Positions 94 to 3,570 are shown, counted from the first letter of the stretch. The stretch: 64,000 bases of DNA from Elusimicrobia bacterium GWB2_63_22 (GCA_001799735.1 MGUA01000007.1:49385-113384); one strand, 5' to 3'. The notes: generated from the letters alone by a model not told the origin. Numbers and translations: made by a program.

Positions 94-234
94 ATGTCTA
101 AACCGATAATAACCGTGAACAAGGAACAGGACTGCAGCGTTTGCGCCGAGTGCACCGAATGCTTTGACCAGTGCTACATAGGCATACAGCTCGCCGCCGG
201 GTCCGCGGGCCTGATAATCACGCATAACTTCTAA
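94..234 (+). CDS. Cys-rich small peptide 1, putative RiPP precursor
   Basis: A 46-residue reading frame too short for routine gene calling. It starts with ATG nine bases after a GGAG Shine-Dalgarno. The first 13 residues (MSKPIITVNKEQD) are nearly identical to those of the peptide at 312-461. They are followed by a cysteine ladder C14, C17, C20, C23, C27 with Glu/Thr/Ser between, and then a conserved hydrophobic tail (AAGSAGLI-x-TH). A conserved leader, a variable Cys-rich middle and an adjacent radical SAM/SPASM gene are the usual layout of a ribosomally made, post-translationally modified peptide. The function is inferred from context. The C17-C27 spacing (CxxCxxCxxxC) also looks like a [4Fe-4S] ligand set, so a metal-binding peptide is an alternative. 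Confidence 0.72.
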   Translation: MSKPIITVNKEQDCSVCAECTECFDQCYIGIQLAAGSAGLIITHNF

Positions 235-311
235 TCCGCCCCCGGGCGGCCCCGGCCTGGGACCCTGGTCCCGGCCGGCAGCGGGAACGAAAAATTAAAA
301 AGGAAAAAAAT

Positions 312-461
312 ATGTCTAAACCGATGATAACCGTTAACAAGGAACAGGACTGCAGCGTCTGCTCGGAGTGCTCCGAGTGCGGGGATTGCCTGACCGGCAG
401 CAACGCGTTCCAGATAGCAGCGGGTTCCGCTGGCCTGATAGTCACGCACTACTTCGGCTGA
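312..461 (+). CDS. Cys-rich small peptide 2, putative RiPP precursor paralogue
   Basis: A 49-residue paralogue of the peptide at 94-234, preceded by an AGGA Shine-Dalgarno. It keeps the leader (MSKPMITVNKEQD) and the tail (AAGSAGLIVTH), but its middle differs. The cysteines C14, C17, C20, C23 and C26 are spaced exactly every third residue, followed by a short LTGSNAFQ segment. Conserved ends with a diversified core are what is expected of duplicated precursors feeding one modifying enzyme. The radical SAM gene follows 58 bp downstream on the same strand, consistent with one operon. No function is recognised from sequence alone. Confidence 0.74.
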   Translation: MSKPMITVNKEQDCSVCSECSECGDCLTGSNAFQIAAGSAGLIVTHYFG

Positions 462-519
462 GCGGGCGGCGGGCGGGCAAAAAAAGATAACATCTCGTAA
501 ACTTGGTTCCGGGAGATTT

Positions 520-1899
520 ATGAAAAGATACATAGCGTTAGCCGGCAATATGACCTTCCAGCGCAAGCCTTCGGGCGCCAGCCTGGTAAAGACGGTGCGG
601 GACGACGGCAAATGGAAGAGCAAGTACCGCAAGGCCGTCAATATGGACGGCGCCAGGATCCTGGAACTGTGCGACGGCCAGCTGCCCTTGGAGGAGCTGC
701 TGGAAAAGCATAACCGGCTTTATCCCGCCAACATCCTTTCCCGCGAGGACGCCGAAGCCTTCTTCGACGCGGCGGAAAAGGAGGAGATGGTGGTGCGCGG
801 CGCGGAGAAACTGCGGACCGACGCCCGCATAGCCGGCTCCTACGAGAACTATTACCCGAACCACATGACGTTCGAGCTCACGGACCAGTGCAATTACCGC
901 TGCAAGCATTGTTACCGCGAAAGTTCGCCCGACCTGCACAAGCGCCTGGACACCGCCAAGGTGAAGGAGTACATCACGGCGCTGCACGAGAACGGCGGCT
1001 CCGTGGTGGAGATCACCGGCGGCGAACCGATGCTTCACAAGGACTTCTTCGAGATCGTGGACTTCGCCTGCGAGAGGCTGAACCTGGTGGCCGTCCTGAC
1101 CAACGGCTATTACCTGCAGGAGGAGGCCCTGCAGCGCCTGCTCAAGCACAAGAAAACCCTGATCTTCAATATCAGCCTCGACAGCCACCTGCCGGAGCGG
1201 CACGACAAGTTCCGCGGAAAAGAAGGGGCGTTCGCCAAGACCATCAACGCGATGCGCCTGCTGGGCGAGCACGGCTTCCGCTACCGCGTGGCCATGTCTG
1301 TGACGCCGGAGAATAACTTTGACATCGAGGAGACGATCAAGCTGGCCAAGGAACACAAGGCCACCACGTTCGGCTATAATCACGTGCTGGATTTCGGCCG
1401 CGGCGAGGGGTTGACCTCCGGCGAGCGGAAGGCCGACGTAGAGGAGCTGAAAAAAAGGGTCGAGTACGAACTTTACATCCGCGACAAGTATAAGGATTTT
1501 TTAAACATGCTGACCCCGGAGCAGATGAAGTCGGTGAAGTCCACTAATTGCGGCATCATCCACCGCACCGTGACCGTGGGCCCCGAAGGGGAGGTCCGTC
1601 CCTGCGCCATGTTCAGCGGCGACGTCATAGAGCTGGGTAACATCATGAATAAATCCTTCAAGGAGCTCTTCAAGTCCGGCATCGGCAACGTGTTCGCGGC
1701 CATGCCCGCCCCGAAAGAGGAGATCTGCGGCGACTGCAAGTATCTGCGCTATTGCGCCAACTGCATACTCCGCGGCATCAAAAAGGGAAGCAAGACCCCT
1801 GGCTGCAAGTGGGTGGAGAAGACCGGAGTGATGAAATACGTGAAGGGGTCTCCCGAAAACCGGGTCTGCGGCAACATCCAGGAACCGATACAGCTTTAA
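520..1899 (+). CDS. Radical SAM/SPASM peptide-modifying enzyme with PqqD-like N-terminal region
   Basis: 459 residues. The canonical radical SAM cluster motif is C124-x3-C128-x2-C131, followed by the SAM-binding GGEP segment (ITGGEPML). The C-terminal third has a SPASM-type auxiliary cluster region, including C403-x2-C406-x5-C412-x2-C415, Cys at PCAM and further Cys near the end. The first ~100 residues resemble a PqqD/RRE-type leader-binding module (LCDGQLPLEELLEKH). In this family such enzymes install thioether, C-C or related links on precursor peptides. GGAG lies 7 nt before the ATG. With the two small Cys-rich peptides immediately upstream, the inferred substrate is their cysteine ladder. 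The class assignment is secure; the chemistry is not. Confidence 0.9.
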   Translation: MKRYIALAGNMTFQRKPSGASLVKTVRDDGKWKSKYRKAVNMDGARILELCDGQLPLEELLEKHNRLYPANILSREDAEAFFDAAEKEEMVVRGAEKLRTDARIAGSYENYYPNHMTFELTDQCNYRCKHCYRESSPDLHKRLDTAKVKEYITALHENGGSVVEITGGEPMLHKDFFEIVDFACERLNLVAVLTNGYYLQEEALQRLLKHKKTLIFNISLDSHLPERHDKFRGKEGAFAKTINAMRLLGEHGFRYRVAMSVTPENNFDIEETIKLAKEHKATTFGYNHVLDFGRGEGLTSGERKADVEELKKRVEYELYIRDKYKDFLNMLTPEQMKSVKSTNCGIIHRTVTVGPEGEVRPCAMFSGDVIELGNIMNKSFKELFKSGIGNVFAAMPAPKEEICGDCKYLRYCANCILRGIKKGSKTPGCKWVEKTGVMKYVKGSPENRVCGNIQEPIQL

Positions 1900-1959
1900 A
1901 GCGGCCGCCGCGGCGCCGGCCACGTGCCGGCCGCGGGCCGGGAGGCGGGGAAAGCGCTC

Positions 1960-3570
1960 ATGAACAGAACGATATTGTTTTTAACAGCGGCGGCGCTATG
2001 CTGCGGCCGCGCGGCGGCCATGTCGCCGGAGGCGGGGGCGGTCTTCGCGAAGGCGGGTATAGCCCTGGCCGACGCAGATCTTTACCGCGTGGCCGAGGTC
2101 TACAACTTCTGGGAGCAGAAAGGGGAAGGCATCTGGCCCGGAATGCAAATCTCTTCCACTCCGGTGCAGCTGGTGTTTCCGGAAAAATACGGGGTGTTGA
2201 TCGGTCATCCGGAACCCCCGAAGGACTGCGAGGCGCAGGAGACGCTCCTGCCCGTGCTGGACAGGCCTTTCTGCCTCAGGCCCGACAGGAGTTTCATGTA
2301 CGGGGCCGGCACCGGCGCGCTAAACAAGAGGCCGGTGGTCTCCCTGAACACGCTGGGCGTGTTCGATGCCTACGTTAACGAGCAGCTCAAAAAACAGAAA
2401 CCGGACGCGGCAAAGTACGCAAAGCCCTACCTGGAATACCTGGGCACGCTCGCCCATGAGCTGACGCACGCCTACCAGCATTCGGAAAAGCGGAACCTGC
2501 CGAAAAAAGAGCGGGACATAAAACCGATCCGGAGCACGAAGATAGATTACCCCTACCAGGACGCCGAAGCCTGTCTGCTGCTGGGGCTGGAAGGCCGCGC
2601 GCTCTCCGACCTTGTGGACGAGGACTCCGCCGCCAGGGCGACTGAGCTGTGGCGGGATTTCTTGGCGGCCCGCCGCGCGCGGCGCGCCCGGCTGCCTAAG
2701 GGCCTGCCGCTGATAGAGCAGTATATGGAACTTAGCGAGGGGACGGCGCAGTACGTGGGCTGGGCGGTTATGTATGGCAAGAACGACGACGTCCGCCCGC
2801 TGCCGCAGCTGCTTGCGGACGAACGCTTTACCGGCTACCTGTCCAGCGACACCGTGCGCTCGCAGGTGAAGCAGGCGCTCGCCGGCCTGGAGCACCCGGC
2901 CCGCAGCCGCTGGATGCAGTACGTCTACGCCACCGGCGCTGCGCTGGCCTACAACCTGGACAAGGCCGCGCCCGGCTGGAAGAACGGGCTTTTTCGCCGC
3001 CTCTCCGGCTTCAGGTCCGGGCTGGATTCCCTGCTTACGGAGAACGTCGGCCGGTCGGGGAAGGATAAGCGGCGGATCGAGACAATGTGTGCGCGGTACG
3101 GCTGTGACGCTATGCGCGCCGTGATAGACGAGGCCCTGGCGAAAGACCTGGAGACTAATAAGGTGAAACTGGACGTCTTTTACGCCGCTCCCGGCCGGCG
3201 TTACCGTTTTGAATTCAGGAAGACCAGGCCGGACGGCCTTCTGGTCTACGCCCCGGTGCTGCTGACGGAGTACAAGGACCTGCGCGTCTTCGAAGCCGGT
3301 ATAACAAAGATAGGCTACGAGCGCGGCGGCAAAGATAATTACGTCTCGTTCTCCAAGGCCCGGCCGGTACTGCAGGACAAGGCCGCCGGCCGCTTTGAGC
3401 TGGCGCTGGACGAGGGTGACCTGCCGGCCATTACCGCCGCCAGGACGCTGGCCAAAAAAGGAAAGACCGTGTACAAAGGCGGGGTCGAGGTTAAGAGCGG
3501 GGTCTTCAGCTGGAAAGGCGACACTCTCGAAGTTTCGGAAAGCGAAGGGATCGTAACCCTGGCTTTCTGA
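1960..3570 (+). CDS. Exported zinc metallopeptidase-like protein (HExxH)
   Basis: 536 residues. The ATG at 1960 is chosen because it gives a clean signal peptide (MNRTILFLTAAALCCG...AAA) and follows a GGAGGCGGG Shine-Dalgarno; an upstream GTG at 1924 lacks both. H166-E-L-T-H170 is a gluzincin-type zinc motif, and E260 in the later SEGTAQYVGW segment is a plausible third ligand. The C-terminal ~130 residues look beta-rich. The fold is not otherwise recognised. It lies 60 bp behind the radical SAM gene on the same strand, so it could be the peptidase that removes the leader of the Cys-rich peptides after export. That role is inference; it may equally be an unrelated surface protease. Confidence 0.75.
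   Translation: MNRTILFLTAAALCCGRAAAMSPEAGAVFAKAGIALADADLYRVAEVYNFWEQKGEGIWPGMQISSTPVQLVFPEKYGVLIGHPEPPKDCEAQETLLPVLDRPFCLRPDRSFMYGAGTGALNKRPVVSLNTLGVFDAYVNEQLKKQKPDAAKYAKPYLEYLGTLAHELTHAYQHSEKRNLPKKERDIKPIRSTKIDYPYQDAEACLLLGLEGRALSDLVDEDSAARATELWRDFLAARRARRARLPKGLPLIEQYMELSEGTAQYVGWAVMYGKNDDVRPLPQLLADERFTGYLSSDTVRSQVKQALAGLEHPARSRWMQYVYATGAALAYNLDKAAPGWKNGLFRRLSGFRSGLDSLLTENVGRSGKDKRRIETMCARYGCDAMRAVIDEALAKDLETNKVKLDVFYAAPGRRYRFEFRKTRPDGLLVYAPVLLTEYKDLRVFEAGITKIGYERGGKDNYVSFSKARPVLQDKAAGRFELALDEGDLPAITAARTLAKKGKTVYKGGVEVKSGVFSWKGDTLEVSESEGIVTLAF

Follow-up and report, generated by a model that had tools for sequence, protein, structure and literature searches.

The window analysed here, a stretch of 64,000 nucleotides from Elusimicrobia bacterium GWB2_63_22 (GCA_001799735.1 MGUA01000007.1:49385-113384), opens with a locus that is probably a sactipeptide-type biosynthetic cluster for ribosomally synthesised and post-translationally modified peptides (RiPPs), the products of which are most likely subtilosin- and thurincin-like peptides in which up to five sulfur-to-carbon bridges act as staples. 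An initial annotation of this DNA had proposed a radical S-adenosylmethionine (SAM) RiPP locus with two tandem cysteine-rich peptides of 46 and 49 amino acids (aa), a SPASM radical SAM enzyme and an exported HExxH peptidase. The four open reading frames (ORFs) listed below were confirmed as real, the two peptide ORFs exactly as described. The features, in window positions, are:

10-25, + strand: -24/-12 (sigma-54-type) promoter-like element, GG-N10-GC, ggcataaaaattgctc, 84 nt upstream of precursor 1
94-234, + strand: precursor peptide 1, ORF of 46 aa; leader MSKPIITVNKEQD; cysteines 14, 17, 20, 23 and 27; precursor profile match 7.9e-19; leader and ladder kept with peptide 2
312-461, + strand: precursor peptide 2, ORF of 49 aa; C-(xxC)4 ladder at 14-26; tail FQIAAGSAGLIVTHYFG; profile match 3.0e-23; dN/dS 0.20 against the orthologue in the closest relative
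520-1899, + strand: radical SAM/SPASM sactisynthase-like enzyme, 459 aa; CNYRCKHC motif; putative N-terminal domain of the RiPP recognition element type; best NCBIfam model AlbA, best Foldseek match SkfB
1960-3570, + strand: secreted HExxH protein, putative zinc peptidase, facultative partner; HELTH and EGTAQY region kept in seven homologues

Co-occurrence of precursors and enzyme

Close orthologues of the enzyme were detected in seven other genomes among the 59 of the family, and one or more ladder peptides lie directly upstream of the enzyme in all eight genomes (the seven plus the window genome), the opposite of the peptide-free enzyme homologues that the initial annotation had named as counter-evidence. 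When 341 genomes of the phylum Elusimicrobiota were searched with a precursor profile, 12 matches reached E<=1e-10. Every one of them lies next to the enzyme in one of these eight genomes, and the match that follows in rank is at 0.0013; a precursor is present in 8 of 9 genomes with the enzyme and in none of 332 others (Fisher's exact test, 2e-15). Because the profile was built from the same peptides that it finds, the informative part of this result is the lack of matches elsewhere, together with the position next to the enzyme, which is independent; absences carry some uncertainty, the named genomes being metagenome bins. Phylum-wide profile matches at E>0.001 were rejected as partial, many of them lying inside longer frames or in frames broken by stops, and the enzyme of genome G006 was rejected as an eighth orthologue, having no ladder peptide and scoring higher with other families.

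Regarding the peptides themselves, the ORFs of peptide 1 (MSKPIITVNKEQDCSVCAECTECFDQCYIGIQLAAGSAGLIITHNF) and peptide 2 (MSKPMITVNKEQDCSVCSECSECGDCLTGSNAFQIAAGSAGLIVTHYFG) are both preceded by a Shine-Dalgarno-like sequence, their leaders are identical at 12 of 13 residues and their tails share AAGSAGLI-x-TH, the common leader and tail initially noted, while the cysteines are at 14/17/20/23/26 in peptide 2 and at 14/17/20/23/27 in peptide 1. Comparison of peptide 2 with its copy in the closest relative (G024) gave a ratio of nonsynonymous to synonymous substitution rates (dN/dS) of 0.20 (dN 0.23, dS 1.16); the precursors are under purifying selection, and this ORF is therefore not a chance frame. 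Peptides of the Elusimicrobiota relatives are 46-50 residues long, all with a C-(xxC)3-4 ladder and a hydrophobic tail of 15-24 residues, and most with the leader pattern M-x-N/K-P-x-I, the G030 leader being longer and of another type. A leader, cysteine donors in the N-terminal half of the core and possible acceptors in its C-terminal half are present in all 11 Elusimicrobiota precursors compared (five cysteines in ten of them, four in that of G033). The initial proposal of a radical SAM RiPP with the cysteine ladder as the site of modification is strongly supported by co-occurrence, by adjacency and by the kind of enzyme involved.

The AlbA-like enzyme

The SPASM radical SAM assignment of the enzyme was borne out by Pfam matches above cut-off to Radical_SAM (2.4e-26) and SPASM (5.6e-07). 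The enzyme has the CX3CX2C cluster motif (C124/C128/C131, within CNYRCKHC) and an auxiliary motif C-x12-G-x4-C...C-x2-C-x5-C-x2-C, with C344, C362, C403, C406, C412, C415, C429 and C450 invariant across seven orthologues, and so combines two features expected in sactipeptide biosynthesis, a CX3CX2C radical SAM core and an auxiliary cluster domain. The best NCBIfam model is AlbA, the subtilosin maturase (239 bits, 5.7e-71, residues 49-432), followed by a family at 132 bits (4e-38). AlbA matches each of the seven aligned orthologues, no other family giving a better E-value, and it likewise ranks first for the distant enzyme of genome G140 and for three methanogen enzymes, in contrast to the control SPASM enzyme of G006, for which another family scores best. 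In an AlphaFold model of the enzyme (pLDDT, the predicted local distance difference test, 71), residues 1-95 form a small alpha/beta domain that is predicted with confidence; the Pfam PqqD match of the enzyme is below cut-off (0.088). Foldseek comparison, made with the whole model including this domain, returned the sactisynthase SkfB (6efn, 5.6e-18) as best PDB match, followed by SuiB and CteB. No useful match came from plasmids searched for relatives of AlbA or for subtilosin.

Relation to known sactipeptides

For comparison with known systems, the sequences of subtilosin A and thurincin H were used, that of subtilosin A being checked by its own Pfam match. The subtilosin A precursor aligns to peptide 2, to the peptides of G033 and G058 and to two peptides from Methanovirga better than to any of 1000 cysteine-preserving shuffles, and for the peptides of G049 and G027 only 2-3 of 1000 such shuffles score better; judged by alignment, the precursors resemble subtilosin A beyond their cysteines. 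The initial annotation had not recognised the precursor family, which can now be placed beside the sactipeptides subtilosin A and thurincin H.

The subtilosin A system of Bacillus subtilis (SboA/AlbA) shares with the cluster the best-matching enzyme model, a short leader ending in -IVE-NK-(x)-C, a cysteine ladder followed by a Gly/Ala-rich hydrophobic tail (FEIAGATGLFG in subtilosin, FQIAAGSAGLI here) and, in most relatives, ATP-binding cassette (ABC) ATPase and permease genes after the enzyme. It differs in having three cysteines rather than five at every third residue; here a tetratricopeptide repeat (TPR) protein is added, and neither an M16-type AlbE/F protein nor a sign of head-to-tail cyclisation was seen. 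The thurincin H system of Bacillus thuringiensis (ThnA/ThnB) likewise has a cysteine at every third residue, three precursor copies, one radical SAM enzyme and genes for a protease and ABC transport (PMC8172795), and the auxiliary C-x5-C-x2-C of ThnB (C449/C455/C458) has the spacing of residues 406/412/415 of the enzyme (PMC8172795); it differs in its four ladder cysteines, its leader and its phylum, and the TPR protein is again particular to the cluster described here. SkfB, which matures the sporulation killing factor, is the closest solved structure to the enzyme model, whereas that factor has one thioether and an unrelated precursor layout.

In thurincin H, cysteines 4, 7, 10 and 13 are linked to residues 28, 25, 22 and 19, so that donor and acceptor positions sum to 32, and in thuricin Z cysteines 4, 8, 12 and 16 are linked to 38, 34, 30 and 26, with a sum of 42 (PMC8172795); within each peptide the sum of donor and acceptor is constant, and this is the rung rule applied below. 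The sactipeptides reviewed in the same work have four thioether rungs at most (PMC8172795), and the five-cysteine ladder corresponds to the thurincin spacing plus one rung.

Predicted maturation pathway

In the proposed pathway, a divergent sigma-54 polymerase, once activated, would transcribe the precursor and TPR genes, and the short leader (M-S-N/K-P-x-I-x-x-x) would be bound by a recognition domain at the N-terminus of the AlbA-like enzyme. A 5'-deoxyadenosyl radical would then be generated at the radical SAM cluster and abstract an alpha-hydrogen from a residue of the hydrophobic, Gly/Ala-rich tail, and a ladder cysteine would close an S-C-alpha thioether, the cycle being repeated rung by rung until a nested hairpin is formed. 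By the thurincin H rung rule up to five rungs may be made, with acceptors at every third residue of the returning strand, and in peptide 2 the register closest to that of subtilosin would be C26-F33, C23-A36, C20-S39, C17-L42 and C14-T45. A full ladder with a loop of at least 3 residues can be drawn in all tails except those of G030, and for the Methanovirga peptides a single register with a loop of at least 3 residues is possible. The peptide would be exported by ABC transporters and its leader removed by a protease, here possibly the HExxH protein, while the secreted TPR protein may help in export, binding or self-protection. The product is likely to be used as a bacteriocin or as a signal against neighbours.

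Points against the assignment and alternative explanations

Several observations weigh against the sactipeptide assignment or parts of it. The enzyme scores 239 bits, far below the cut-off of 850 bits of the AlbA equivalog model NF012164, and is therefore to be called AlbA-like rather than AlbA; for the same reason, identity of its chemistry with that of AlbA is not assured. Some SPASM enzymes form S-C-beta or S-C-gamma links, C-C links or other links. Neither the peptides of the window nor those of the relatives match the Pfam subtilosin model PF11420, which subtilosin A itself matches at 5.8e-26, and in a pure profile comparison with subtilosin A the precursors did not score above cysteine-preserving shuffles. 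Five rungs would leave a loop of only two residues in the G030 tails of 15 residues, no ladder peptide was seen near the enzyme in the ninth enzyme genome, G140, and the clusters of G027 and G058 are without the promoter motif described below. In G140 (L111:5078-7677) the AlbA-like enzyme is directly followed by a subtilase-like lipoprotein.

If the same enzyme and ladder gave beta- or gamma-carbon links or crosslinks other than thioethers, the product would be a ranthipeptide or another radical SAM RiPP, and, as SPASM membership alone does not fix regiochemistry and leader, recognition element and precursor architecture are common to these classes, such an outcome is conceivable; it is nonetheless unlikely, as AlbA leads with 239 bits, the family in second place having about 130, the ranthipeptide models PapB and SCIFF are outside the best 25 NCBIfam models for the enzyme, the best fold match is a sactisynthase, the ladder is of the CxxC type and most tails lack the Asp or Glu required for a CX3D-type linkage. 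Far less probable still is that the peptides are small iron-sulfur or metal-binding proteins (mini-ferredoxins or metallochaperones), the enzyme modifying something else or being matured by them. The CxxCxxC spacing and marginal Fer4 matches for two relatives (0.011-0.07, below cut-offs) would fit such proteins, and sequence and profile comparison of the precursors with solved structures or Pfam gave artefacts and weak ferredoxin matches only, whereas the leader and hydrophobic tail, the lack of a CP after the ladder, the co-occurrence with an AlbA-type enzyme and exporters, the tandem variants with divergent middles and the subtilosin-like GLVGLW tails of the methanogen relatives argue for a modified peptide, and S-C-alpha-linked sactipeptides are the favoured product.

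TPR protein, transport genes and HExxH protein

The window starts directly after a scaffold gap (G000:C7:49357-49384) that lies inside a third precursor copy, the first 29 codons of which are readable and differ from peptide 2 at 2 nt in 87 nt. Across the gap, on the same strand, are this third precursor and, further upstream, genes encoding a secreted TPR protein and a fused ABC exporter (ABC_membrane and ABC_tran domains), as well as a secreted or membrane protein of 173 aa. Assembly of G024 is likewise broken at precursor repeats, its two contig ends overlapping by 40 nt inside a precursor gene; since repeated precursors break assemblies, precursor copy number is a minimum. The host is an uncultured member of the Elusimicrobiota, and its close named relatives are Elusimicrobia bins, GWA2_61_42 and GWC2_61_19 among them. 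In two genomes NifU/IscU-like and cysteine desulfurase genes were found a few kb from the cluster (G000:C7:43597-45666; L018:7771-9813), which may reflect a shared location only.

The TPR protein was detected in 7 of the 8 enzyme genomes and in none of 51 others of the family (p=2e-8), the contig of the eighth being truncated, and with this enzyme-restricted distribution at two different positions it is regarded as a dedicated partner. ABC ATPase and permease genes are located downstream of the enzyme in G024, G027, G033, G049 and G030; in the window genome these downstream genes are replaced, and the fused exporter is upstream instead. The order in G024 is activator, sigma-54, HExxH protein, fused exporter, TPR protein, precursors, enzyme and ABC-2 genes.

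Regarding the HExxH protein, which has a hydrophobic N-terminus, the motif stood as initially described, H166, E167 and H170 being invariant across seven homologues, while its place as a regular pathway member did not: the constant partners are the TPR protein and the ABC transport genes, mostly outside the window. It has no Pfam family match, and a fold search with its confident model (pLDDT 87) gave no significant PDB match; as no solved fold matched, peptidase activity is suggested by motifs only, and the protein may act in leader removal or processing. Distribution led to its rejection as a constant cluster member, linkage being partly restored through the overlapping contigs of G024. That it is an unrelated neighbour outside the pathway is a substantial possibility, somewhat short of even: six of the eight enzyme genomes lack it and five genomes without the enzyme have it (5/51), with no significant association (p=0.24). 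Yet in both genomes that have both genes, the window genome and G024, it is linked to the cluster, although its place there differs: in the former it follows the enzyme, and in the latter it lies upstream of the ABC exporter. The HExxH protein is thus a facultative partner of the cluster.

Promoter elements and divergent sigma-54 factors

In six of the eight clusters, TPR, precursor, exporter or sigma-54 genes are preceded at a distance of 41-98 nt by TGGCAT-N5-WTGCTC elements, in which the GG-N10-GC spacing is exactly that of -24/-12 promoters. Of six exact matches to the pattern GGCAT-N5-WTGCTCYGT genome-wide, three lie in this cluster (reversed control, 0). A strict Sigma54_CBD search found no Pfam core-binding domain in the genome and missed RpoN, which was recovered with the TIGR02395 and PF04552 models; for want of that core-binding domain the sigma factor is described as divergent. 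Short RpoN proteins of this kind, in which only the DNA-binding domain is recognised, occur in the genus, one of them beside an activator with the GAFTGA motif, so that -24/-12 elements, an RpoN DNA-binding domain and a GAFTGA activator, the components of a sigma-54 regulon, were all detected; in G024 the RpoN/activator pair adjoins the cluster. Sigma-54 elements and enhancer-binding activators control polyketide and non-ribosomal peptide genes (PMC7910581); the -24/-12 control is alike in those systems, whereas here it is predicted, for a RiPP cluster and with a short divergent RpoN. Two types of short divergent sigma-54 were observed in the genus, each with its own activator and one with a PAS-type kinase. 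The genes, one type of which neighbours the RiPP cluster in G024, are:

L200:6871-7923: short divergent sigma-54 gene
L180:4662-5732: short divergent sigma-54 gene
L201:7018-8073: short divergent sigma-54 gene

A second RiPP-like locus was observed in the same genome (G000:C8 62165-67115; L202:4165-9116), with a 69-aa peptide ending TRCGTYSDPDDPCPDDDPLDYKGS, preceded by the same -24/-12 element, and genes encoding a radical SAM enzyme (best model TIGR04463), an M50-like protein, a second radical SAM/SPASM protein and a phosphotransferase.

Relatives in methanogenic archaea

Enzymes 29-33% identical to that of the window were found in termite-gut bins of the methanogens Methanobrevibacter and Methanovirga. 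Three Methanovirga species have peptides such as MNPEITPNKIGCKICALCTFCIICAGPAWGAGFSGLVGLW upstream of the enzyme, with a leader that recalls the Elusimicrobiota peptides and a tail that recalls subtilosin, and ABC ATPase and permease genes follow the enzyme where the contig continues. Subtilosin-like precursors with AlbA-type enzymes in these termite-gut archaea are located at:

L031:3321-3443
L034:457-579
L187:7097-7219
L030:2823-2963

It is tentatively suggested, though on balance doubtful, that these clusters form a deeply branching sactipeptide family common to Elusimicrobiota and termite-gut methanogens, with five nested S-C-alpha rungs, a short divergent sigma-54 and an activator of its own, and a secreted TPR protein as obligate partner.

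Significance

As the precursors are subtilosin- and thurincin-like and the enzyme is of the AlbA type, the class of molecule is not new. The peptide family appears to be unreported in open-licence full texts, as do its ladder of five cysteines and its spread to archaea of termite guts; judged by counts, titles and abstracts, texts joining 'sactipeptide' with 'Elusimicrob' or 'Methanobrevibacter' mention both in passing only. AlbA-type sactipeptide chemistry would thus be extended to an uncultured phylum and to archaea, and the divergent sigma-54/activator pair beside the cluster suggests how such peptides may be switched on. The hairpin rung rule can be tested within the family, since peptides 1 and 2 have the same tail and a shifted fifth cysteine, the G033 peptide has four cysteines and the Methanovirga peptides are of minimal length, which makes the register measurable, and a short, stable and heavily stapled hairpin of this kind would be a useful scaffold.

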